Positions 335 through 54,412 of a stretch of 64,000 bases of DNA are shown here, piece by piece (position 1 is the first letter of the stretch; each line of letters opens with the position of its first letter). The notes under the pieces were generated by a model. That model ran no database searches. It had not been told where the DNA came from and saw only the letters and a program-made list of their open reading frames with translations. Both the position numbers and the translations under genes were made by a program. Source of the stretch: Bacteroidota bacterium. GTDB lineage: Bacteria > Bacteroidota > Bacteroidia > Chitinophagales > Chitinophagaceae. Location: positions 1 to 64,000 of the forward strand of contig VGFK01000005.1 in the NCBI GenBank assembly GCA_016868895.1, given 5' to 3'.

Positions 335-522
335 CCCGTCTCCACGAGAGTGGTGCATTCAAACTTTTTTTGATAGGCTTGAATGATCTCCTGTTTGAGT
401 CGGTGTGGATTGGGTAGCGGTTTCCCTTGCAAAATCCAGTCGGTGTATTCCTGATCGATCTCTCTCAATCGACCGGCCACATCAATCTTCTTGGGAAAAA
501 ACCGTCCTATGAGTTATTTCAT
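335..522 (-). pseudogene. Class I SAM methyltransferase-like gene, N-terminal fragment cut by the IS element
   Basis: After the plsX stop the minus strand reads ATG AAA TAA, then an open frame giving LIGRFFPKKIDVAGRLREID, later GKPLPNPHRLKQEIIQAY and finally TTLVETG. The closing LVETG is the start of the LVETGTYLGDM-type SAM-binding motif I of a methyltransferase family. The frame then enters the IS end and stops at 319. The ATG overlaps the plsX TGA as ATGA, so the gene was probably translationally coupled to plsX. The TAA at codon 3 looks like a CAA-to-TAA change. The gene therefore appears broken twice, by a nonsense codon and by the insertion. The family call rests on about 60 residues. 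Confidence 0.6.
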
Positions 523-1454
523 GCACTGGGCTGCAGGCTTTGTTTGATTTTTCCGATCACGTCTTTTTCAATCATTTTTTCTGCGATGCGGATCATGTTC
601 AGGAAGGCTTTTGCGTGGGAGATGCCGTGACCAATGATCACCGGTTTGTTGACGCCCAATACCGGAACGCCACCGTATTGTTCAAATTCGAACCGGTCAA
701 AAAATTCATCGTGTACGTTGCGGCGCTGCACTAGTCCGTGAATGCTTTCCGCTAATTTGAGAATCACGTTGCCTGTGAATCCTTCGCAGACCATCACGTC
801 TGCTTCATCCAGGAACACATCGCGCCCCTCAATGTTTCCAATGAAGTTGAGTTGTTTGTTTTGTCTCAGCAGCGGGTAAGCCGCTTGTGCCAACAGATTT
901 CCTTTTCCCTCTTCTTCACCGATGTTGATCAGTCCCACTTTCGGACGATCATACCCGAGCACTTCTTCCGCGAAGATGGATCCCAGCAGTGCAAATTGTT
1001 CCAGGTTTTCCGGCTTGCAGTCGGAATTGATCCCCGCATCCAACAGCCATCCCAGCTTTCCGTTTTCCCTTGGCATGTAGGCGCCAATTGTGGGCCGTAA
1101 GATTCCTTCAATGGCTTTGATGCTGAAGAGGGATCCCACCATCATGGCGCCCGTATTACCCGCGCTGATGAAGGCATCGATTTTGCCTTGGGCCAGGTGA
1201 GCGAAGCCCACTGCGATGGAAGAATCCGGTTTCTCTTTCAGTGCTTTGGTCGGGTGTTCCTCCATGCCAATGACCTGCGTGGTTGGAACGATCGTGATGT
1301 TGTCGGTGGGAAGGGGGAGGTGTTCGGGGAGGGAGCCGAATAAATGCAGTTGTACGTTGTTTGTTGTACGTTGTAGGTTGAAATAGAGTTCGAGGCCTTT
1401 AATGGCCTCTAAGGGGGCGAAATCTCCGCCCATGATATCCAATCCGATGTTCAT
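519..1454 (-). CDS. plsX: Phosphate acyltransferase PlsX
   Basis: PlsX converts acyl-ACP to acyl-phosphate for phospholipid synthesis, acting at the inner face of the cytoplasmic membrane. The 311-residue product has the family start MNIGLDIMGGDFAPLEAIKG, a central DCKPENLEQFALLGSIFAEE segment, and the C-terminal GHGISHAKAFLNMIRIAE region. Length is normal. I chose the ATG at 1454; the longer frame begins at a GTG inside rpmF and adds seven unrelated residues. It follows DUF177 and rpmF, the usual gene order. Residues about 26-36 (NLQRTTNNVQL) are encoded by the heptamer repeat described separately. fabH, a common next gene, is not present; the next frame is the broken methyltransferase. Confidence 0.95.
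   Translation of the reverse strand: MNIGLDIMGGDFAPLEAIKGLELYFNLQRTTNNVQLHLFGSLPEHLPLPTDNITIVPTTQVIGMEEHPTKALKEKPDSSIAVGFAHLAQGKIDAFISAGNTGAMMVGSLFSIKAIEGILRPTIGAYMPRENGKLGWLLDAGINSDCKPENLEQFALLGSIFAEEVLGYDRPKVGLINIGEEEGKGNLLAQAAYPLLRQNKQLNFIGNIEGRDVFLDEADVMVCEGFTGNVILKLAESIHGLVQRRNVHDEFFDRFEFEQYGGVPVLGVNKPVIIGHGISHAKAFLNMIRIAEKMIEKDVIGKIKQSLQPSA
1349..1380 (-). repeat. GTTGTAN heptamer array inside plsX
   Basis: The plus strand reads GTTGTAC GTTGTTT, then GTTGTAC GTTGTAG and GTTG, four and a half heptamers of the dispersed repeat family. It lies wholly within the plsX frame and encodes residues NLQRTTNNVQL without breaking it. The surrounding PlsX motifs are intact. Confidence 0.8.
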
Positions 1455-1474
1455 GGTGCAGCGACTCTTGGGCA

Positions 1475-1666
1475 CTAGTTGATAGGCGACTTCTCGGCGA
1501 CTACCTTTCCCTTGTACATGAGCTTGCCTTCGCTGACGTGAGCGCGGTGGCGCACGTGCAGTTCTCCTGTAGCCGTATCCTTGCTGAGGGTTACGCTTTC
1601 TGCCTTATAGTGTGTCCTTCTCTTCGCGCTTCGTTGCTGTGAGTGGCGGCGTTTGGGATTTGGCAT
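1475..1666 (-). CDS. rpmF: 50S ribosomal protein L32 (form lacking zinc cysteines)
   Basis: The 63-residue product begins MPNPKRRHSQQRSAKRRTHY, the basic N-terminal signature of L32, a component of the large ribosomal subunit. The second half (GELHVRHRAHVSEGKLMYKG) has no cysteine, whereas many L32 proteins carry two CxxC pairs that bind zinc. This is the cysteine-free form. It lies 12 bases after the DUF177 gene and directly before plsX, and is probably cotranscribed with both from the promoter at 2236-2267. Confidence 0.95.
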   Translation of the reverse strand: MPNPKRRHSQQRSAKRRTHYKAESVTLSKDTATGELHVRHRAHVSEGKLMYKGKVVAEKSPIN

Positions 1667-2975: not shown

Positions 2976-4055
2976 ATGTATTATAGAAGCCCTGATCAAA
3001 AATATAGCGTGCTGCTGGTGCTCAGTGCAATGGCTTGGACGTGGATGAGTTTTCCGGCGACGATCGATTCTTGGTATACTCATTTTTTATTCGGGTACAT
3101 TGGCGCGGGTTTGCGTTGGGCATTTGGATGGATACCGTTCAGTGTTGGCGATGTACTCTACATAGCAGCAGGGTTTTGGTTATTGGTTGTGGGCTTGCCC
3201 GCTGTGGTGAAATTGCCCGCCGCGGCGGATTGGCGGAAGGTGGGGCGACTCCTATTTTTTTTGTGTAGCATTTGGCTGGCGTTTCATGTGCTCTGGGGGT
3301 TCAATTATTACCGACAGAGCATCCCCGATCAATTTGGATTGCGCAAAGGAGAAGTCACTGCGGAAGAGATCAGGGCATTTGCTGAATATTCATTGACCGA
3401 AGCGAACCGCTGGGTTCCCGCAACGGGCAGCAACGGTATACAGGTAGAGCAAATCAAGAAGGCGTACGATTCGCTAGCCACCCATTTTTCTTTTCTTACT
3501 TATCGTCCCGTTTCCTACAAGCACTCTCTTTTTGGAGTACTGGGAAATTACATGGGTTATGGGGGGTATTACAATCCTTTTACCGGCGAAGCGCAGATCA
3601 ATGCGCATTTACCGGAGTTCATGCATCCCTATATTGCTTTGCACGAAGTAGCTCACCAACTGGGGTATGCCAAAGAGAGCGATGCCAATTTCATTGGCTA
3701 TCTAGCTGCACTGCATTCTATCGACAGCTCCACGCGGTATTCTGCACACCTTGAACTTTTTATATATGCCAACAATGTGTTGTGGAGAACAGATTCTATT
3801 GCGGCAAAAAACAACAAAGAGCGATTATCGCCGCGCATAAAAAAAGACCTTGCAGCATACAAGGTCTTTGCAGAAAAATATTTTGGTCCACTCGACCGCT
3901 TCATCACCTGGTTCTATGCGGGCTTTTTACGGTTCAACAATCAACCCGATGGCATGCGCTCGTATAACCGCGGGATGCTCTACGCCCTCCGCTACCATCA
4001 ACCCGCCACGGCGGATAAACATACAACATACAACTTACAACATACAACTTTTTAA
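2976..4055 (+). CDS. DUF3810 membrane protein with HExxH metalloprotease motif
   Basis: The 359-residue protein has three N-terminal hydrophobic segments (about residues 10-30, 55-80, 88-108), then a long extracytoplasmic domain. That domain carries HEVAH at residues 223-227, followed by GYAKESDANF, a gluzincin-like arrangement (H223, E224, H227, E234). This matches DUF3810, a Bacteroidota family with no assigned substrate. Peptidase activity is inferred from the motif. The last 18 residues, ending HTTYNLQHTTF, are encoded by the dispersed repeat and are unlikely to be native. The stop overlaps that of the convergent GLPGLI-like gene by 4 bases. Confidence 0.85.
   Translation: MYYRSPDQKYSVLLVLSAMAWTWMSFPATIDSWYTHFLFGYIGAGLRWAFGWIPFSVGDVLYIAAGFWLLVVGLPAVVKLPAAADWRKVGRLLFFLCSIWLAFHVLWGFNYYRQSIPDQFGLRKGEVTAEEIRAFAEYSLTEANRWVPATGSNGIQVEQIKKAYDSLATHFSFLTYRPVSYKHSLFGVLGNYMGYGGYYNPFTGEAQINAHLPEFMHPYIALHEVAHQLGYAKESDANFIGYLAALHSIDSSTRYSAHLELFIYANNVLWRTDSIAAKNNKERLSPRIKKDLAAYKVFAEKYFGPLDRFITWFYAGFLRFNNQPDGMRSYNRGMLYALRYHQPATADKHTTYNLQHTTF
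3836..3869 (-). terminator. Rho-independent terminator inside the convergent DUF3810 gene
   Basis: A perfect 10-bp stem (AAAGACCTTG at 3843-3852, CAAGGTCTTT at 3860-3869) has a 7-base loop. On the minus strand it is followed directly by a run of T's (CTTTTTTTATG). This is a standard intrinsic terminator for leftward transcripts. It lies about 185 bases past the GLPGLI-like stop and within the coding sequence of the opposing gene. Confidence 0.6.
4002..4053. repeat. Mosaic repeat forming the 3' end of the DUF3810 gene
   Basis: The palindrome arm CCCGCCACGGCGG (4002-4014) is followed by NTACAAC-type heptamers in the C-rich orientation up to the stop codon. It encodes the protein tail and contributes its stop codon region. 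Confidence 0.8.
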
Positions 4056-8344: not shown

Positions 8345-8391
8345 GTTGTAGGCGTGCCCGCCGTGGCGGGTTGTAAGTTGTATGTTGCTAG
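8342..8391. repeat. Mosaic repeat with GC palindrome after the hexosaminidase gene
   Basis: In G-rich orientation it reads TAGGTTGTAGG, then CCCGCCGTGGCGGG (8357-8370, a 6-bp perfect stem with a 2-base loop), then TTGTAAGTTGTATGTTG. The first bases are the TAG stop codon of the hexosaminidase. There is no T-run, so it is not a canonical terminator. Confidence 0.8.
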
Positions 8392-8400
8392 GTGTGATCA

Positions 8401-9393
8401 TTAATATTCATCTACCCCGTATTTCAGTCCCATTGCAGTTCTAATTCGGTCTAGCGTTTTCATCAGATCAAGGGTGTGGTCGAGCGACCAAATGGGACTT
8501 TCGGTTTTCCCTTCTACTAGACATTCCTGAACATGTCGTGCTTCAAACTGGTATCCAAAACCAGCCTCTCTATCCACTCCGACCAAGGTCCGAGTATCCA
8601 CGATGCCCGGATAATATTGAATGGTCGCGGACGGTTCATAAAAGCGGGAGGTCAGTCGGATGCGTCCCTTTGTTCCAAAAATATCTGCGTCGGTTTCCAG
8701 GTTTGAAGCCAGGGTGGCAAACAGGTTGGCAGATCGACCGTTGTTGTAATGAAACGAGATGGAACATTGTTCATCCACTCCAGTCGCTGCAGGGTTCATG
8801 CTGGCCTGGATCATATCTGGTACGCCCAGAATGGACTGGGCCAGAAAGACCGGGTAGATGCCGATGTCGAGCAGGGCTCCGCCTCCAAGGGCAGGATCAA
8901 AGAGACGCGGTGCCACCGGTTCCACCGGTTTGAAACCGAAGTTGGCATTGACGCCCTTGAGTTCACCAAGGAGTCCCTCTGCTATCATCTCTCGCACTTT
9001 CTGATAATGCGGCAGGAAGCGGGTCCACAAGGCTTCCATCAAGAATACTTTTCTCGACCGCGCCAATGCGATCATTTCGCTGGCTTGTCGGTGATTGATG
9101 GCAAATGCTTTTTCGCAGAGTACCGCTTTGCCATGGTTCAAGCAGAGCAAGGTGTGCTCATGGTGATGGCTGTGCGGACTCGCTACGTAGATCACATCCA
9201 GATCCGGAAGATTGACCAGATCTTGGTAGGAGCCGAGTACATGCGTAGCCGGAAAATCGTTGGCAAAGGCTTGTGCACGTTCCCATGAACTTGACGCGAC
9301 AGCATGGAGCACTGCACCTTCAACGTGTTTCAGGTCCGATGCAAATTTCCGTGCAATCTTTCCGCAAGCGAGGATGCCCCAGTTGGTTTTCAT
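8401..9393 (-). CDS. Gfo/Idh/MocA-family oxidoreductase (dihydrodiol/xylose dehydrogenase-like)
   Basis: The 330-residue cytoplasmic protein starts with a Rossmann NAD(P)-binding domain (NWGILACGKIARKFASDL). The family motif normally written EKP reads CEKAFAINHRQ (about residue 96). The C-terminal substrate domain contains GGGALLDIGIYPVFLAQSIL, typical of the group with trans-1,2-dihydrobenzenediol dehydrogenase. The exact substrate, probably a sugar or polyol, cannot be told. It is a single gene between two repeat elements and lacks the Tat-type leader of the other members in the window. Confidence 0.85.
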   Translation of the reverse strand: MKTNWGILACGKIARKFASDLKHVEGAVLHAVASSSWERAQAFANDFPATHVLGSYQDLVNLPDLDVIYVASPHSHHHEHTLLCLNHGKAVLCEKAFAINHRQASEMIALARSRKVFLMEALWTRFLPHYQKVREMIAEGLLGELKGVNANFGFKPVEPVAPRLFDPALGGGALLDIGIYPVFLAQSILGVPDMIQASMNPAATGVDEQCSISFHYNNGRSANLFATLASNLETDADIFGTKGRIRLTSRFYEPSATIQYYPGIVDTRTLVGVDREAGFGYQFEARHVQECLVEGKTESPIWSLDHTLDLMKTLDRIRTAMGLKYGVDEY

Positions 9394-9409
9394 AAATCAA
9401 GGTTCTAAG

Positions 9410-9891
9410 TTGTATGTTGTAGGTTGTAAGTTATGTTTTAAAGTCATTTTCAGTGTTTTTTTCAGCATTTTATCGGTAATGAAGATTATTATTTTGTACG
9501 AATGAAATCGTATAGAGATTTAAATGGTTATCAACTATCACTTTCACTTTTTTATCAGGTTCATCCCTTGACCTTAAGGTTACCCAAATACGAGTGTTAT
9601 GAGTTAGGTAGTCAGCTGAGACGATCCGCAGATTCTGTTGTAACCAATTTGGTAGAAGGTTATGGGAGAAAAGAGTACAAACATGATTTCATTTGGTTCA
9701 TGATTATCTCTCATTCCAGTTCCCTGGAAACCATCAATCATCTTGAAAAGTTAGCAGCTCTTCATCCTGGACTTTCTACCGAAGCTTCCATCCTCAAAGA
9801 AGATTATGCTATCCTCAGTCAAAAACTCTATGCTTTTCTGATGTACATTAAAAGGAACTGGCGCACATAACCTACAACCTACAACATACAA
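9410..9891 (+). mobile_element. S23/IVP-like unit bounded by 27-bp inverted repeats
   Basis: The left end (9410-9436) and the reverse complement of the right end (9865-9891) are 27 bases long and differ at one position. Both consist of GTTGTAN heptamers ending in GTTATGT. Between them is a single gene for a four-helix-bundle protein (9502-9870), whose TAA stop lies inside the right repeat. The whole unit is 482 bp. A transcript would fold with a 27-bp basal stem, recalling intervening sequences of 23S rRNA genes that encode related proteins. Mobility is inferred from structure; target duplications were not seen. Confidence 0.55.
9502..9870 (+). CDS. Four-helix-bundle protein of the S23/IVP family
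   Basis: The 122-residue protein contains [20 protein letters not shown] and [15 protein letters not shown], hallmarks of the 23S-rRNA intervening-sequence protein (TIGR02436-type) four-helix bundle. The same fold occurs in the Avd accessory protein of diversity-generating retroelements. The biochemical role of stand-alone copies is not established; an RNA- or DNA-binding role is plausible. No rRNA gene, reverse transcriptase or variable repeat lies nearby. It sits between inverted heptamer repeats. The upstream 65 bases are AT-rich with no clear -7 box. Confidence 0.85.
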
Positions 9892-9937
9892 GCCTCCCTT
9901 GTGAATAACTCGTGGATATCCCCACCTCCTCAAGCAT

Positions 9938-14836: not shown

Positions 14837-14892
14837 TAACCTACAACCCGCCACGGCGGGCTCGCCCACAACCTACAGCCCACAACCTACAA
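14837..14892. repeat. Mosaic repeat between two convergent genes
   Basis: It is C-rich on the plus strand: TAACCTACAAC, then CCCGCCACGGCGGG (14847-14860), a short GC linker, then CCACAACC/CTACAAC-type heptamers ending exactly at the stop codon of the minus-strand ureohydrolase-like gene. It fills the whole intergenic space. Confidence 0.8.
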
Positions 14893-15933
14893 CTATATTT
14901 TACTTTTCACAAAATCCGTAATCAGCAATCCAATCAACGTTGCGAGTTGTTGGCTTTCGGCGTGGAGTTGTCCGGAAGAGCCTTTGCAGATGTGCAGGCT
15001 GCAGATGTTGGAATAGTTGCCGCAGAAGCGGATGAATTGCCGGGCTTGGTCGACCGACACCCCACCGGGATGTGTGGACATCGATCCGGAGTGGTTGACG
15101 GCATCCAGGTCAAGATCGACGGCTATCGGTTCATCATCGATGAAGGCAAACGATTGCGCAAGGGACTGCACAAAATTCAGTCGCTCGTCCACAAAAATCT
15201 CTTCATACGTGTGGTAATGAATATTCACATTGCTGTAGAGATCATCCATCATGCTTTGCGGATTGTTGTTCTCTTGTAATCCAATCACTGCATAACGGTG
15301 CAGATAGGATTCTTCCATGGCATAGCGAATGGCATTGCCGTTGTGCCGACCTTCCATGATGCGGTATCCTCCAAACGAAGAGAGATTGATGGCATTGATC
15401 ATGGGACGTTTTGTCTTGCCGGCTTTGTATAAATTTTTAGCAGCGGACTTGATGATGGGATACGCATTGTTGTGTCCACCTCCGACCACAATCGGAATTT
15501 TTCCCGAAGCAATAATGGCCTTCACTACCGATTCCACTTCTTCGTCGATGATGTTGGCAACAGCGTGCCGACATGCATCAATTTTTTCTTCTGTGTTCAT
15601 GTGGTGATGGTCGATCACCTGCTGCACATCGGAAAAATCAAAATAACCGGCTAGGATGACTTCGCTACCGGAGCAGGCATCGCTGCTCTGCAGGTTGAGA
15701 AACGCGTTGACAAAATGGAACCAGGTGTGTTCAGCACCTTTTGTGCCGTGATCGCCGAGAACACCGATGCATTCTGGAACGCCGATGCATACAAATCGTG
15801 CTTCGGGATGAGCGGAAAGAGAGGAAAGGCCATTTTTCAGGATCTGAGCGCGTTCTCCCAGTTTGGTTTCGTAGCGCCGAATCCGGGTATGGTCGAGCAG
15901 TTCCTTTTTTGTGTAAAAATGGAAGCGGGACAT
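14893..15933 (-). CDS. Formimidoylglutamase/arginase-family protein lacking part of the metal site
   Basis: The 346-residue protein has the ureohydrolase fold. IVVGGGHNNAYPII (H154) matches the first metal motif GGxH. EGRHNGNAIRYAMEESYLHR and YAVIGLQENNN match the formimidoylglutamase-like branch. AVDLDLDAVNHSGSM (D273, D275, D277) matches the third motif. The central motif DAHxD is replaced by SSFGG (residues 185-189), losing two Asp and one His that bind the manganese pair. Hydrolase activity is therefore doubtful; a regulatory or scaffold role is possible. Its stop abuts a mosaic repeat. An intact family member lies at 22946-23989. Confidence 0.75.
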   Translation of the reverse strand: MSRFHFYTKKELLDHTRIRRYETKLGERAQILKNGLSSLSAHPEARFVCIGVPECIGVLGDHGTKGAEHTWFHFVNAFLNLQSSDACSGSEVILAGYFDFSDVQQVIDHHHMNTEEKIDACRHAVANIIDEEVESVVKAIIASGKIPIVVGGGHNNAYPIIKSAAKNLYKAGKTKRPMINAINLSSFGGYRIMEGRHNGNAIRYAMEESYLHRYAVIGLQENNNPQSMMDDLYSNVNIHYHTYEEIFVDERLNFVQSLAQSFAFIDDEPIAVDLDLDAVNHSGSMSTHPGGVSVDQARQFIRFCGNYSNICSLHICKGSSGQLHAESQQLATLIGLLITDFVKSKI

Positions 15934-16010: not shown

Positions 16011-17747
16011 ATGCCGGATTTTGAGATCAAGAAACCTTCGAAGGAATATGATGCAATAGTTGTAGGATCGGGTGCAGGAGGAGGAATGGCCGCCTACGTG
16101 TTGGCCAATCAGGGATTGAAAGTGTGTTTGCTGGAAGCGGGACCGGATTACGATCCTGCCAAAAATATTACCCAGCTAAAAAATCCGTGGGAGTCGCCAC
16201 GCCGGGGTGCCAGCACCAAGTTCAGGCCCTTTGGCGATTTCGATGCCAGCTATTGGGGCTGGGAAATTGAAGGAGAACCGTATACCAAAGCTGCAGGAAC
16301 GCAGTGGGATTGGTGGCGTTCTCGGATGGTGGGAGGTCGCACCAACCACTGGGGCCGCATCTCCCTGCGATTTGGTCCCAAAGATTTCAAACGCAAAAGC
16401 ATTGACGGACTCGGCGACGACTGGCCGATTGGATACGAAGACATCAAACCGTATTACGATCGAATCGATAAATTAATTGGGGTATTCGGGACCAACGAAG
16501 GATTGGAAAACGATCCCGATGGAATTTTTCTTCCACCTCCCAAACCACGCTTGCACGAAATCTTCATCAAAAATTCTGCCGCAAAAGCAGGAGTACCAGT
16601 CATCCCATCGCGTTTGTCTATATTGACTCAGAAGATCAACGATGAGCGCGGACAATGTTTTTATTGTTCCCAATGCAACAGGGGTTGCACGGTGTACGGT
16701 GATTTTTCATCTTCGTCCGTGTTGGTGAAGCCCGCATTGAAGACCGGTAATGTGGACCTCATTACTGGCGCCATGGCGCGTGAAGTATTGACCAACGCGG
16801 AGGGGTTGGCAGTTGGAGTTTCGTATGTCAACAAGCACGATTTGTTGGAATACGAAGTCAGGGGCCGTGCTGTGATCCTGGCAGCCAGTGCCTGCGAATC
16901 TTCGCGCTTGCTTTTGAATTCAAAATCGCAGCGCCATCCCAACGGACTCGCCAACAGCAGCAATGTGGTGGGCAAGTACCTGCACGATTCAACCGGTGCG
17001 GCCATGGGCGGAATTCTTCCGGAGTTGTTTGATCGCAAGCGCTACAACGAAGATGGGGTAGGCGGCATGCACGTCTATTCACCCTGGTGGGGCGATAACA
17101 AGAAACTGGATTTCCCACGCGGATACCATATTGAATACTGGGGCGGAATGGGTCAGCCGGCCTATGGCTTTGGTTGGGGCATTGAAGGGCTGAATGGAAA
17201 GTATCCCGTAAACGGAGAAAAGAAGGAGGCCGGTGGATACGGTGCGTCATTGAAGCAAGATTACCGGTATTTCTATGGAGCAGGAGTGGGCATGGCCGGA
17301 AGGGGTGAAGCCATTCCGCTGGAATCAAATTATTGCGAGATCGATCCGAGTGTGGTCGATAAATATGGTATTCCCGTATTGCGTTTCCATGTGAAGTGGT
17401 CCGAGCACGAAGTGAAGCAGGCCAAGCACATGAAAGAGACGTTCAAGGAGATTATGCATTCCATGGGTGCTGTGATTACATGGGGCGATGATGGTCCCGA
17501 AAACAGTTACGGACTCGAATCGCCTGGAAAGATCATTCATGAAGCTGGAACGGTGAGGATGGGAAGTGATGCCAAGCGTTCTGCGTTGAACAAGTACAAT
17601 CAAGCGCACGATTGTAAGAATTTGTTTGTCGTGGACGGTGGAGCATTTGTGTCGCAGGCCGATAAAAACATCACCTGGACCATCTTGGCACTCTCCATGC
17701 GCGCCTCCGAATACCTGATTGAAGAAATGAAAAAACGCAACATATAA
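16011..17747 (+). CDS. GMC-family FAD-dependent sugar/alcohol dehydrogenase, catalytic subunit
   Basis: The protein (578 residues from this ATG) has the FAD-binding motif DAIVVGSGAGGGMAAYVLAN and a GRTNHWGRISLRFGP segment. A cysteine-rich loop (RGQCFYCSQCNRGCTVYGD, near residue 215) follows, and the C-terminal GMC signature includes AGTVRMGSDAKRSALN. It resembles glucoside-3-dehydrogenase or gluconate-2-dehydrogenase large subunits, which oxidise sugars and pass electrons to cytochromes. The next gene encodes the matching small subunit. I prefer the ATG at 16011; a GTG at 15993 would add six residues. No signal peptide is visible, so export may rely on the partner. Confidence 0.85.
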   Translation: MPDFEIKKPSKEYDAIVVGSGAGGGMAAYVLANQGLKVCLLEAGPDYDPAKNITQLKNPWESPRRGASTKFRPFGDFDASYWGWEIEGEPYTKAAGTQWDWWRSRMVGGRTNHWGRISLRFGPKDFKRKSIDGLGDDWPIGYEDIKPYYDRIDKLIGVFGTNEGLENDPDGIFLPPPKPRLHEIFIKNSAAKAGVPVIPSRLSILTQKINDERGQCFYCSQCNRGCTVYGDFSSSSVLVKPALKTGNVDLITGAMAREVLTNAEGLAVGVSYVNKHDLLEYEVRGRAVILAASACESSRLLLNSKSQRHPNGLANSSNVVGKYLHDSTGAAMGGILPELFDRKRYNEDGVGGMHVYSPWWGDNKKLDFPRGYHIEYWGGMGQPAYGFGWGIEGLNGKYPVNGEKKEAGGYGASLKQDYRYFYGAGVGMAGRGEAIPLESNYCEIDPSVVDKYGIPVLRFHVKWSEHEVKQAKHMKETFKEIMHSMGAVITWGDDGPENSYGLESPGKIIHEAGTVRMGSDAKRSALNKYNQAHDCKNLFVVDGGAFVSQADKNITWTILALSMRASEYLIEEMKKRNI

Positions 17748-17779
17748 CATACAACTTACAACGTACAACTTACAACATT
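17744..17779. repeat. Heptamer repeat after the GMC gene
   Basis: Starting at the TAA stop, about five NTACAAC-type heptamers (ACATACAACTTACAACG and on) fill most of the 38-base gap before the small-subunit gene. There is no GC palindrome. Unlike most other copies, it interrupts an apparent operon. Confidence 0.75.
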
Positions 17780-20991: not shown

Positions 20992-21072
20992 AAGTTGTAA
21001 GTTGTAGGTTGTAAGTTAAATAGAATTATTTCATAAAAATGTTAAAGCCAACATACAACCTACAACGTATAA
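20992..21072. repeat. Inverted pair of heptamer arrays (MITE-like)
   Basis: G-rich heptamers (20993-21018) and C-rich heptamers (21051-21072) face each other across about 32 AT-rich bases. The pair occupies the whole gap between the TonB-type start and the radical SAM stop. The arrangement matches the ends of the S23/IVP unit at 9410-9891 without a gene inside. Confidence 0.65.
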
Positions 21073-22371
21073 TCATTTCGCATAATCCTTTTCAAACACT
21101 CCCTTAATCCGTTCCATGGGCGGATTGTAATATCCGAATTTGAGATCGGGGAATTCTTCGCGGATGAGTTCCATGAGATTGCGGATACCCATCATCTCCA
21201 TTGGCTCTGTAATTCCCATTCTGCCCAGGTACCAGTCGGGATCGATGTTGAAATTCCTCCACTGAATCATTTTCAAATTTGTTTTCCGAATCACGGAGCG
21301 CAGGGATTCGTATTCTGCTTCGGTATCGGTCATTCCGGGAAAAACAAAATAGTTGATTGAGCTCCATCCGCCGAATTGATTGACGATCGAGAGGCTTTCA
21401 AGGATGTCATCAAAGCGGTAGTTGTTGGGACGATAATAGCGTTCATACCAGGAGGCTTGCAATGAGTTCGTGCTCACCCGAATCGAATCGAGTCCCGCTT
21501 CACACAATGCCCTCACGGCTTTTGGCATGGAGCCGTTTGTGTTGATGTTGATGCTGCCTCGTTCGGTGTGTTTTCTGATTTCCGCAATGGCTTCGCGGAT
21601 GGTTTCCCACATGAGGAGTGGTTCGCCTTCGCATCCTTGTCCAAAACTCACGATGGGAAACGGTGCATTCATGAGATGTGGAACAGTGAACTCCACAATT
21701 TCTTCTTTGGTGGGTTTAAACAACAGGCGGTCTTGCGGAGACGTAATCGATTCCGATTCCGGTTGAAACGATATGCATCCGATGCAATTGGAATTGCAGG
21801 CAGGGGATGAAGGGATGGGGCATTCCCATCGACCTAAAAAATAATTGCGGGCAGCGGGACAGGTATACGTCCTGCAGCATTTTTCTGCCAGGTGTTGTAC
21901 CAGTCGGTTCTGCGGATATGCTTGCAGCATGGCTTCAACGCCGGTTTCGATTTTTTCGGCATCATAGCCAGCACATTCCTGTCGGATATCCGGTTCGATC
22001 CGAATGGCGGTCACCATGAACTGATCGTCGTACCATCCGGCAGCGGTATAGCAAAACAGGGGGAGGGTTACGGCGTTGGGACTGGTTTCAAAGGCGGCGA
22101 GAAAAGTACCGGTGTGGGCAGGGGGGACAAACGCCGCAACGGCCCAGCCTTTTTCGCACAGCCGCATCTCTCCGGTCTCTACATCAATGCCGATGCCTTT
22201 TCTTCCCGGCAATTCATAGAGCGAACCTCCATCGGGAAGCGGAATCCATTCATTCAACTCAACCGGAAATGCATCCCATCCGGAACGTCCTACTGCGTAA
22301 AGTGTTTCATCTTCGAAGATGTTGCCTTTCCCATCGGAGTACAACAGATAGGGGGAGTGCTGAAGGGCCAT
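21073..22371 (-). CDS. Radical SAM protein
   Basis: The 432-residue protein has an unusual N-terminal region of about 185 residues, then the cluster motif CNSNCIGC (C192, C196, C199), the CxxxCxxC of radical SAM enzymes. Motifs such as VSFGQGCEGEPLL (SAM-binding GGE-like) and SININTNGSMP follow. Cysteines at 165, 166, 171 and 184 before the motif could hold an additional cluster. The product is unknown. I use the ATG at 22371, because the longer frame starts at TTG. It follows a membrane-protein gene by 8 bases and may be expressed from a TAACTTTG box overlapping that gene's stop (22375-22382). Confidence 0.8.
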   Translation of the reverse strand: MALQHSPYLLYSDGKGNIFEDETLYAVGRSGWDAFPVELNEWIPLPDGGSLYELPGRKGIGIDVETGEMRLCEKGWAVAAFVPPAHTGTFLAAFETSPNAVTLPLFCYTAAGWYDDQFMVTAIRIEPDIRQECAGYDAEKIETGVEAMLQAYPQNRLVQHLAEKCCRTYTCPAARNYFLGRWECPIPSSPACNSNCIGCISFQPESESITSPQDRLLFKPTKEEIVEFTVPHLMNAPFPIVSFGQGCEGEPLLMWETIREAIAEIRKHTERGSININTNGSMPKAVRALCEAGLDSIRVSTNSLQASWYERYYRPNNYRFDDILESLSIVNQFGGWSSINYFVFPGMTDTEAEYESLRSVIRKTNLKMIQWRNFNIDPDWYLGRMGITEPMEMMGIRNLMELIREEFPDLKFGYYNPPMERIKGVFEKDYAK

Positions 22372-24553: not shown

Positions 24554-27019
24554 ATGATTGAATACAATGGCGAACATCTGCTGATTGGGCAGATTGGAAT
24601 GTTTTTGACCTTATTGGCATTTTTTTCTGCATTGGTTGCAGCGTTTTCAAATTTTAGAGCAGCTGGGGCAGCAGACGCCATTCAGGAAAAGCCATGGCAG
24701 CGGTTGGCGCGCGTGAGCTTTATTTTGAATGTCTTGTCGGTAATCGGACTTTTTGTTACCCTCTACCTCATCATCTACAATCACTACTTTGAATACAAAT
24801 ACGCGCACCAACACTCCAAGCGGAGTTTGGATGTGCAGTACCTCTTGAGTTGTTTTTGGGAGGGCCAGGAAGGCAGTTTTATGCTCTGGGCTTTTTGGAA
24901 TGCGGTATTGGGACTCTTGCTGATTCGCTGGTCCAAGAAGTGGGAATATCCGGTAATGGCCATCATGAGTATGGCGCAGGTCTTTTTAGCGACGTTCCTC
25001 ATCGGTATTTATTTCTTTGATATCAAGATCGGTTCCAATCCATTTGTATTGATGCGCAGTGAGTTTCCGGATGCTCCAATATTCCGGGATCCCGATTATC
25101 TGACCAAATACATTACAGACGGTAACGGATTGAATATTTTGTTGCAGAATTATTGGATGGTGATTCATCCCCCCATTTTGTTTTTGGGATTTGCCAGCTC
25201 CATTGTTCCGTATGCGTACGTTGTTGCCGGTTTGTGGAAAAAAGATCATTCCGGATGGTTGCGTCCAGCAATGCCTTGGGCCTTGTTCTGTGCGGGTATT
25301 TTGGGACTCGGCATCATGATGGGTGCGGCATGGGCCTATGAGTCGCTTACCTTCGGAGGCTATTGGGCCTGGGATCCTGTGGAGAATGCTTCAATGGTGC
25401 CATGGCTCTTACTGGTGGCGGGAATCCATACCATGTTAATTTACAAGAGCACCGGTCATTCGCTCAAAAGCAGTTACCTCTTCATTGCTCTTTCGCATCT
25501 GCTGGTTTTGTATTCTACATTCCTCACGCGCACTGGCGTTTTGGGCGATACCTCTGTTCACTCGTTTACAGGAGAAGGCAGCACGTTATATTGGCACCTG
25601 ATCATCATGCAGTTGTTTTTTATTGCTGTGCCGATCTACTTGTACTACCGCGACCGAAAAAATATTCCTGTGGTGCACAAAGAGGAAAGCATGAACTCAC
25701 GGGAGTTTTGGATGTTTGTCGGTTCACTTTTACTGCTGATCTCTGCAGTGTACATCATTGTGCTGACATCGCTTCCATTCATCAATAAATTATTTGGAAC
25801 GTCCTGGGCAATTGGTGAGAACGTTGAGTACGTCTATAACCGCATCATGATTCTTGTTGCTATTCTTTTAGGAGCACTGACAGGATGTGTGCAGTACTTC
25901 AAGTACAAGGATACCTCACGCAAATACATTTGGTCTAAGTTGCTCATCCCAACCATTATTGCAGTAGTGCTTTCCGCGGCAGTCAGCATTTTCGGTGAAG
26001 TGAATTACGACAAGTTTGGCTTGGGATTTCTAATTGGTATACATGTGGCCTTGTGGACCGCTATCTATACCATTGTTACCAATGCCTCTTACCTGATTTC
26101 TGTCATGAAATGGAAATGGAAGGCAGCTGGCGCATCGATCACGCACGTTGGGTTTGGAATGATGCTCTTGGGTATTCTCATCTCATCCTCTAAAAAAGAA
26201 CTCATTTCCAAGAATGCAGGCGGAATTGCAGTGACAGGTTTAAAAGATGCCAAGGGGAGGGACGAAGATCCATTGGAAAATGTAACCTTACTCAAAGGGG
26301 TTCCTGTGAAAATGGGTAAATACGTGGTCACGTATTACGGTGATTCTACAGTTGAACGTTCCGATAAGGTCTTTTTCAATATTCGATTCATTGAAGTGGA
26401 TGAAAATGATTCCATAAAGGATGCTTTTACTATAATGCCCAATGCATTTCTGGTAAAAAGTGAAAATAATTCACAGCTTTCATCGAATCCCGGTTCGCGC
26501 CACTATGTGTCAGAAGATATTTTCGTTTACATCACATCATGGCTGAATCCTGACAGCATAAAGGATACAACCACCACTCGGTTTACGGCCATTCAGGAAG
26601 GCGACACTGTATTTTATTCTAAAGGGTTTATCGTGATCAATAAAATGCTGCAGGCGAATAAAAACGACAACAAAGATCTTCCGATGGTAGACAGTGCCTG
26701 GGTTTCAGAAGTGACCGTGGAATCAACTGAAGGATACACCTATAAACAAAGCCCCGCCTTAATGGTTAGGGGAGGTGTTGCAATTCTCAAGAATGATACC
26801 ATCATGGAGCAACGTTTGGTGCTCTCCATGCGCAAGGATCCTGCTTCAGGAAAAGTTCAACTGGGTATTCGTGAACCAGATGCAATGGTACGCTACATCA
26901 CGCTGAAGGCCTATCGTTTTCCATGGATCAATGTGCTTTGGATTGGAACCATTGTCATGGTCCTTGGTTTCATGATCAGTGTGGCGTTTAGGATTCGGAG
27001 TAAGCTCTATATGGCTTAG
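24554..27019 (+). CDS. ccmF: Heme lyase CcmF (cytochrome c assembly protein)
   Basis: The 821-residue membrane protein has many transmembrane helices, with the tryptophan-rich heme-handling motif GGYWAWDPVENASMVPWLLL near residue 270 and histidines such as MVIHPPILFLGF. It attaches heme from CcmE to apocytochrome c at the periplasmic face. It is longer than typical CcmF (about 650); the extra is mainly a periplasmic domain (about residues 555-790) before the last helix. The other ccm genes are not in the window. The stop is followed directly by a heptamer repeat. Confidence 0.92.
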   Translation: MIEYNGEHLLIGQIGMFLTLLAFFSALVAAFSNFRAAGAADAIQEKPWQRLARVSFILNVLSVIGLFVTLYLIIYNHYFEYKYAHQHSKRSLDVQYLLSCFWEGQEGSFMLWAFWNAVLGLLLIRWSKKWEYPVMAIMSMAQVFLATFLIGIYFFDIKIGSNPFVLMRSEFPDAPIFRDPDYLTKYITDGNGLNILLQNYWMVIHPPILFLGFASSIVPYAYVVAGLWKKDHSGWLRPAMPWALFCAGILGLGIMMGAAWAYESLTFGGYWAWDPVENASMVPWLLLVAGIHTMLIYKSTGHSLKSSYLFIALSHLLVLYSTFLTRTGVLGDTSVHSFTGEGSTLYWHLIIMQLFFIAVPIYLYYRDRKNIPVVHKEESMNSREFWMFVGSLLLLISAVYIIVLTSLPFINKLFGTSWAIGENVEYVYNRIMILVAILLGALTGCVQYFKYKDTSRKYIWSKLLIPTIIAVVLSAAVSIFGEVNYDKFGLGFLIGIHVALWTAIYTIVTNASYLISVMKWKWKAAGASITHVGFGMMLLGILISSSKKELISKNAGGIAVTGLKDAKGRDEDPLENVTLLKGVPVKMGKYVVTYYGDSTVERSDKVFFNIRFIEVDENDSIKDAFTIMPNAFLVKSENNSQLSSNPGSRHYVSEDIFVYITSWLNPDSIKDTTTTRFTAIQEGDTVFYSKGFIVINKMLQANKNDNKDLPMVDSAWVSEVTVESTEGYTYKQSPALMVRGGVAILKNDTIMEQRLVLSMRKDPASGKVQLGIREPDAMVRYITLKAYRFPWINVLWIGTIVMVLGFMISVAFRIRSKLYMA

Positions 27020-27020
27020 T

Positions 27021-27075
27021 GGGTTGTAGGTTGTATGTTGTACGTTGTAGGTTGTATGTTGTACGTTGTAGGTTA
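27021..27075. repeat. Heptamer array between ccmF and DUF4294
   Basis: A 21-base unit (GTTGTAGGTTGTATGTTGTAC) occurs about 2.5 times, that is eight heptamers, in G-rich orientation from just after the ccmF stop. Its last bases GGTTA run into a TAATTTTG promoter-like box. Confidence 0.85.
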
Positions 27076-30394: not shown

Positions 30395-30449
30395 CCCACA
30401 ACCCGCCGCTAGCACACCTATACAACATACAACGTACAACATACAACCT
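30382..30449. repeat. Mosaic repeat after aguA
   Basis: CCCGCCACC, then CCCACAACCCGCCGC (a decayed GC palindrome), then about four NTACAAC heptamers (ATACAACATACAACGTACAA). It begins within the last codons of aguA and ends just before the stop of the CDF transporter gene. Confidence 0.75.
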
Positions 30450-33348: not shown

Positions 33349-33381
33349 CCCGCCACTCCTACAACATACAACTTACAACCT
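33346..33381. repeat. Mosaic repeat between yggS and the M20 peptidase gene
   Basis: From the TAA stop it reads CCCGCCACTCC (half palindrome), then TACAACATACAACTTACAAC. On the minus strand the AGGTTGTAA end of the repeat supplies the last Arg-Leu codons and the TAA stop of the M20 peptidase. It bridges both convergent stops. Confidence 0.8.
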
Positions 33382-54370: not shown

Positions 54371-54412
54371 TGGGTTGTGGGTTATGGGTTATAGGTTGTG
54401 AGTTATGTGTTG
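54371..54412. repeat. Degenerate heptamer repeat between uxuA and the SDR gene
   Basis: GGTTGTG GGTTATG GGTTATA, then GGTTGTG AGTTATG follow a diverged heptamer pattern (GGTT[GA]T[GA]). It supplies the final Asn-Thr codons and TAA stop of uxuA on the minus strand. It is the only copy in the uronate island. Confidence 0.6.

Follow-up and report, generated by a model that had tools for sequence, protein, structure and literature searches.

A protein gene of the 23S rRNA intervening-sequence (IVP, or S23) family was noticed between inverted arrays of the heptamer GTTGTAN in the window, a 64,000-nucleotide stretch of a Bacteroidota genome (G000). Does such a gene with its arrays form a mobile element, and are the similar arrays elsewhere in the genome its relatives? 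An initial annotation of the window had proposed both, comparing the arrangement with REP sequences and their RAYT transposases.

The inverted ends proved to be real. The two arms (9410-9436 and 9865-9891) are 27 nt each, complementary at 26/27 positions (96%), and separated by 428 nt. When 1-2 mismatches are tolerated the left array extends out to 9402 and the right one to 9892. The annotated 482 bp is therefore the minimum unit length, and 9402-9892 comprises 491 bp. The left array of the sister genome G001 is 63 bp long. A single ORF lies between the arms, and its stop codon (TAA, 9868-9870) falls within the right arm, exactly as the initial annotation had it. The features of the window are collected in Table 1.

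Table 1. The IVP unit and related heptamer arrays of the window.
Feature	Coordinates	Strand	Remarks
Whole unit, one IVP gene with its flanking inverted heptamer arrays	9402-9892		Kept in position in G001 (79% nt identity); missing e.g. in G025, G010
Left (upstream) GTTGTAN array	9402-9436	+	Mirrors right array over 27 nt, one mismatch
IVP gene, 122 aa, PF05635 / TIGR02436	9502-9870	+	dN/dS 0.08 vs G001
Right (downstream) heptamer array	9865-9892	-	Holds IVP stop codon
IVP-less hairpin, miniature relative	20992-21073 (arrays 20992-21017 + / 21050-21073 -)		Kept in G001
Dispersed heptamer array	1349-1379	+	In ORF 519-1475 (-), apparently a linker
Dispersed heptamer array	4018-4048	-	Converging stop codons
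Dispersed heptamer array	8370-8386	+	Between converging stop codons
Dispersed heptamer array	14870-14893	-	Same slot: full hairpin in G001, GGGACRA array in G002, GTTAACN-type array in G026
Dispersed heptamer array	17739-17776	-	Covers stop codon at 17747
Dispersed heptamer array	27022-27074	+	Directly past stop codon at 27019; shared with G001
Dispersed heptamer array	30420-30447	-	Between converging stop codons; shared with G001
Dispersed heptamer array	33356-33379	-	Converging stop codons; shared with G001
Degenerate array, GTTGTGN/GTTATGN/GTTATAN	54371-54408	+	

The enclosed ORF matches PF05635 (23S_rRNA_IVP; E 3.5e-19, 69.4 bits against a cut-off of 33.8) and TIGR02436 (73.2 bits, cut-off 24), which confirms its annotation as an S23/IVP gene. 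It is the only TIGR02436 gene in the whole genome. Between G000 and G001 the IVP proteins share 86% identity and dN/dS is 0.08, so purifying selection keeps the protein; dN/dS for the smc segment is 0.02. Residues Q38, R41, S45 and E76 (window numbering) are invariant in 20/20 diverse IVPs, and N49 and E52 are found in at least 90%. A profile search of solved structures returned 2gsc and 2rld, with five chains each. By homology the window IVP is a putative pentameric four-helix bundle. We know of no catalytic domain or nuclease fold in PF05635, and of no function for the IVP/S23 protein despite the two solved structures.

An Rfam scan of the whole window gave no family at the gathering score, and the neighbors of the unit are protein ORFs. 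The unit is therefore outside any recognisable rRNA gene, as had been claimed, and differs in this from intervening sequences located inside a 23S rRNA gene. It does share their stem-forming terminal inverted repeats. When the unit was folded as RNA the arms paired with each other (-128.5 kcal/mol, z -4.26), and 0/100 shuffles were equally stable. Two features of a DNA transposable element are also present, namely terminal inverted repeats together with filled and empty versions of one site. A Pfam scan of the unit found PF05635 only, with no known transposase and no HUH tyrosine transposase gene.

The pairing of the arms is what an RNA route would use. A transcript would fold into the arm stem and be excised by RNase III, then IVP would carry the RNA to a reverse transcriptase supplied in trans and a copy would be inserted. 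In the accessible text of PMC4990558, RNase III is described as cutting a 28-bp stem at the ends of the Coxiella 23S element, and the ORF of that element is preceded by tandem GACAGAT heptamers, the copy number of which varies between strains. A resemblance of PF05635 to Avd, a DGR protein, is described in part of PMC10053308; however, Avd was not among the matches of the IVP profile in our search of solved structures, which gave 2gsc and 2rld instead. The unit also carries no reverse transcriptase gene, and inversions beside the arrays (see below) indicate DNA events. We consider the RNA route quite improbable.

Among relatives, a single site can be empty or occupied by a unit in one orientation or the other. 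The site lies upstream of a gene that we take to be smc; this name and the names MocA-like, murC-like, formimidoylglutamase-like and accB/accC-like were presumptively assigned by the look of the sequences. An IVP unit was found there in 6/26 congeners with a readable smc start. It runs along the direction of smc in G000, G001 and G002 and opposite to it in G024, G026 and G030. The window type of IVP occurs at this site in G000, G001, G024 and G026, while G002 and G030 have a second type that is 28-30% identical to it. The repeats at the site are GTTGTAN, GTTGTGN/GTTATGN, GGGACRA and GGGATGA. The smc-upstream arrangement is plain, without a unit, in G025 and G010, and the contigs of G004 and G009 terminate in arrays at the site. 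An array starts at the stop codon of the MocA-like gene in G024 and G026, while in G002 and G030 the alignment of this gene stops about ten codons early, at the array. At least two independent arrivals in this slot are therefore likely. For the unit of the window no closely related empty site was found, hence no target duplication is readable there. Upstream of smc in G016 (L139) there is a small IVP-less hairpin with a 9-bp period.

The heptamer is scattered over the window, as first described. With up to 2 mismatches, GTTGTANGTTGTANGTT has 33 matches in the window, where shuffles (n = 100) predict 0.09. In the whole 1.75-Mb genome there are 27+21 exact matches on the two strands, compared with 0+1 for the same pattern read backwards. 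These 48 matches form 20 array places. 17/20 places fall in contig C5 at 1-34 kb (the window) and contig C1 at 24-73 kb; both array-rich stretches lie at contig starts and may be one neighborhood around the IVP unit.

The dispersed arrays, like the hairpins that lack IVP, have the character of relatives of IVP units. Opposite-strand array pairs less than 300 bp apart, which is too short for the IVP gene, have the polarity of the unit in 12/12 listed pairs (hand count), and so do 3/3 close opposite pairs in the gammaproteobacterial genome G446. Repeats akin to those at the gene are dispersed as they are in REP/RAYT systems. In G026 (L308) a second heptamer family, GTTAACN/GTTGACN, was observed at 1152-1192, 1828-1888 and 2637-2689, and one of its arrays sits within a stretch matching the murC-like gene.

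Short or single-gene inversions relative to congeners adjoin heptamer arrays at 8401-9393, 14893-15933 and 3531-3772 of the window. The MocA-like gene is inverted in G000/G001 relative to G002, G024, G025 and G026, and the formimidoylglutamase-like gene is inverted between G000/G026 and G002/G025. Single-gene inversions in this position suggest that arrays may also recombine. Simple recombination between inverted arrays was considered as their source, but the array at 8370 has an unfitting orientation.

The layout of the IVP unit is widespread in many bacterial phyla, and the ends are matched within a unit though the repeat differs. Loci were scored by the best ungapped inverted repeat between the 250 bp upstream and the 250 bp downstream of the gene, with a threshold of at least 14. 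TIGR02436 genes were found in 45/60 relatives (136 matches). The 93 of these loci that were scored were taken best-scoring first, with fragments and weak matches mostly dropped, and 60/93 reached the threshold, compared with 2/262 cross-paired flanks from different genomes and 1/93 shuffled sequences. A multi-phylum sample consisted of 80 named loci out of at least 590 candidates, selected with the pattern S[IV]P[ST]NI[AS]EG, which favors classical IVPs. Here the threshold was reached at 22/51 loci in Bacteroidota, 18/29 in other phyla and 1/236 cross-paired flanks. Plasmid IVP loci reached it in 11/15 cases. Inverted arms were also observed at 14/24 IVP loci on IMG/VR viral contigs (L232-L255), which include near-duplicates (L240-L242 with L252; L244-L246), while one IVP query of an annotated phage collection gave no match.

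Altogether 114/197 IVP loci are framed by inverted arrays, compared with 8/234 ordinary ORFs of at least 100 aa from the same loci and 3/498 cross-paired flanks. 83/197 IVP genes are below the threshold. The framing rate is uneven between groups, at 5/20 in the Xanthomonas-like family of G446 and 9/18 in other Gammaproteobacteria. The prediction that inverted heptamers are commoner at IVP genes than at other genes was borne out, with a heptamer that varies by unit, and IVP genes are mostly flanked by such repeats rather than mostly without them.

This enrichment bears on the alternative that there is no element at all. The arrays would be simple repeats of the host or 3'-end hairpins expanded by slippage, and IVP an ordinary gene between hairpins. 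Such a reading suits the 9/11 array sites of the window that are no more than 30 bp from a stop codon (a count without control), the different heptamers held by three relatives in one intergenic slot (14870-14893), and the regulatory or G4-forming roles described for heptamer repeats in parts of PMC4679880 and PMC4692102. However, the enrichment is specific to IVP genes over ordinary ORFs, and filled and empty sites with exact duplications exist (see below). The empty sites in particular disfavor this explanation, and we regard it as very improbable.

The repeat period of the arms is 7 bp in 68/87 units, 8 in 16, 9 in 2 and 6 in 1. The repeat itself varies between units (GTTGTAN, GGGACRA, GGGAGAA, TTAGTGG, AGTAGCTG, GTTGAAGGG), while both ends of any unit match. 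Read on the gene strand, the upstream arms are rich in G (G>C in 73/85, C>G in 8), and AG occurs within the repeat unit in 64/85 cases against 51 expected from letter shuffling. Period has no relation to the protein (Mantel r -0.03, p 0.64). For arm sequence the correlation with the protein is weak over all units (r 0.14, p 0.002) and becomes strong only among closely related proteins. The order of repeat variants is weakly mirrored in the two arms at 22.3, compared with 18.8 when the repeat units are shuffled, and just 3/63 units beat 95/100 shuffles on their own. A comparison of register (0.91 vs 0.80) is biased, as the best register had been picked. Heptamer-armed IVP units lie between cas6 and cas4 on plasmids of Anabaena sp. 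90 (L266) and Pseudanabaena galeata (L267); IVP genes in cas loci were noted earlier in the portion of PMC3936711 available.

Comparison of loci with and without the unit had been suggested as a check on mobility, and empty sites exist on plasmids as well as at the smc locus. A tblastn search with one IVP query identified 38 plasmid records, mainly from cyanobacteria. For the unit on plasmid C of Trichormus variabilis ATCC 29413, six records share the flanks at 97.4-97.8% identity and have no unit; the junction was read in two of them (L369, L370). The empty form is ...AAAAAGTAATTAACAAAT..., and in the filled form GTAAT flanks the insert on both sides. The insert is 428 bp including the duplication, with an exact 5-bp overlap (script-confirmed) and flanks that are 97.8% identical. 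Scytonema carries this insertion at 414 bp, 14 bp or two heptamers shorter. The same site holds a decayed IVP in Nostoc C052 (L372) and an IVP-less hairpin in Brasilonema (L373).

Four more plasmid sites were compared with empty relatives. TTCTA is duplicated exactly (5 bp, read by eye) at the second (L265 vs L383), and the third (L261 vs L382) has either an exact 3-bp duplication or TAATG/TTATG with one mismatch (4/5). No clear duplication was seen at the junctions of two further sites (L269 vs L380/L381; L257 vs L374/L375). The five sites thus comprise two exact 5-bp duplications, one partial and two with none visible. The L257 and L258 units are one heptamer apart. Three plasmid sites coincide with a stop codon in such a way that the gene upstream still ends in one, which would make insertion near stop codons tolerable. 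Across 110 diverged units the longest common word outside the arms was 4.15, compared with 4.10 for cross-pairs. This missing duplication signal counts against a general claim, though unsure outer ends could explain it.

Filled and empty sites uphold the mobile part of the proposed autonomous mobile element. Of the two outcomes that the initial annotation named as fatal to the idea, IVP genes mostly without flanking heptamers and a lack of empty sites in relatives, neither was observed. The autonomous part gained no support from the tests, and IVP has no catalytic domain known to us. A passive unit would be moved by an unrelated transposase in trans that acts on inverted arrays, as for MITEs, with IVP as cargo or as a regulator of array RNA. 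The one polarity common to units and IVP-less hairpins, a 5-bp target duplication typical of ordinary DNA transposition, and the lack of a known nuclease fold in IVP are consistent with this. Yet a single outside transposase should require fixed ends, whereas the repeat varies and IVP is the sole constant.

The distribution of the arrays is also at odds with a passive unit, as heptamer arrays go with IVP type. Within the genus GTTGTANGTTGTANGTT is present in 13/41 genomes (highest G001 57, G000 48, G024 23), and GGGACRAGGGACRAGG is likewise present in 13/41 (highest G002 87, G024 40, G009 27). Using an 80% coverage filter on 37 genomes, GTTGTAN arrays were found in 4/6 genomes with the window-type IVP and 4/31 others (Fisher p 0.013), and GGGACRA arrays in 5/7 genomes with the second type and 5/30 others (Fisher p 0.009). 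The filter was added after the first test, and p is 0.22 for GTTGTAN and 0.02 for GGGACRA when it is omitted. Among 16 genomes TTAGTGG arrays occur solely in the genome of the Thiohalocapsa locus. Dispersed arrays share polarity with the units and go with their IVP type, as expected of the relatives that had been postulated. We find a passive unit rather unlikely.

Published heptamers provided two further cases. GGGAATC arrays in Xanthomonas, many of them convergent pairs, are described in the accessible text of Rehm 2015 (PMC4692102). It was set down, before the sequence was read, that any genome carrying GGGAATC arrays should contain an IVP gene with GGGAATC on both sides. Three tandem copies of GGGAATC were found in 1/369 genomes of Gammaproteobacteria, the class of Thiohalocapsa, and this genome was G446. 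Its one IVP gene is broken by a frameshift, giving two matches, and has GGGAATC three times upstream on the plus strand and twice downstream on the minus strand. In other members of the Xanthomonas-like family of G446, where 20 of 23 matches were analysed, the link is looser. GGGAATN was found on both sides of 3/20 IVPs and upstream of 8/20, including 5/6 IVPs with an EAMK-containing (accB-like) neighbor.

TAACTGA, taken as the second case, mostly failed. Its direct repeats resemble the present arrays as heptamers of distant phyla with no known mechanism, according to the part of MacGregor 2015 (PMC4679880) consulted. TAACTGA arrays occur in 18/395 Bacteroidota, and 21/23 array places (L346-L368) have no IVP neighbor. 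The link of TAACTGA with IVP is weak because an IVP gene lies beside only 2/23 arrays, one of which has arrays on one side only.

We favor, with some reserve, a very small mobile DNA element in which IVP recognises its own arrays and a host or other enzyme does the cutting; this reading is somewhat probable. An IVP oligomer would bind the heptamer arrays of its own unit, in the form of folded-back DNA or RNA, and bring the two ends into contact. An enzyme acting in trans, rather than IVP itself, would more likely do the cutting and joining. Dispersed arrays and IVP-less hairpins would be remnants or passively moved derivatives, and slippage would change array length. A bolder version, to which we give little credence, makes IVP the first example of a new kind of mobility protein. 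The pentameric bundle, with Q38, R41, S45, N49, E52 and E76, would perform or organise strand transfer, and the ends would be a freely rewritten short tandem repeat. If so, each lineage rewrites the repeat in both ends at once and scatters copies genome-wide, and IVP units would be the common source of many bacterial heptamer arrays.

The idea that the 23S rRNA elements with IVP are mobile is decades old (cited in part of PMC4990558) and has lacked a mechanism. Plasmid units with exact empty sites take the question beyond rRNA genes, and cultured cyanobacteria and E. coli become systems in which it can be tested. IVP units may explain short-repeat arrays reported in several bacteria without known cause. 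If the heptamer link holds, the arrays of Xanthomonas, Nostoc, Coxiella and the present Bacteroidota genus have one cause. An element with freely changing yet matched ends would differ from known transposons, the ends of which are fixed. In the open PMC literature, to which the search was confined (subscription papers and preprints being outside its scope), no recognisable description of heptamer-ended IVP units outside rRNA was found.

Several known systems resemble the unit in part. IVP/S23p-coding 23S rRNA intervening sequences of Coxiella and Leptospira also have one gene and stem-forming inverted repeats in about 430 nt, as far as PMC4990558 was accessible. In contrast, the window unit lies between protein genes with heptamer-array arms on both sides, and its relatives show empty sites with 5-bp duplications. 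The arrays of Xanthomonas and Nostoc in the available part of PMC4692102 (GGGAATC and GGGGA(C/T)T) are likewise intergenic and near stops, with many convergent inverted pairs. No cognate gene is named in that part of the account, whereas the GGGAATC genome examined here has an IVP gene framed by GGGAATC.

The parallel with REP/RAYT drawn in the initial annotation is apt for the layout, a gene between palindromic repeats with many gene-less copies of these repeats dispersed elsewhere (PMC3733652, in part). It does not extend to the enzyme, since RAYT is a HUH tyrosine transposase and PF05635 is not; IVP, a small bundle of helices, has no known catalytic activity. Unlike REP, IVP units have repeats in short tandem arrays, and these vary from lineage to lineage. 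MITEs are also small, with terminal inverted repeats and a likeness to the IVP-less forms, and their target duplication has a counterpart at some of the plasmid sites, but IVP units encode a conserved protein and the sequence of their ends is not fixed.
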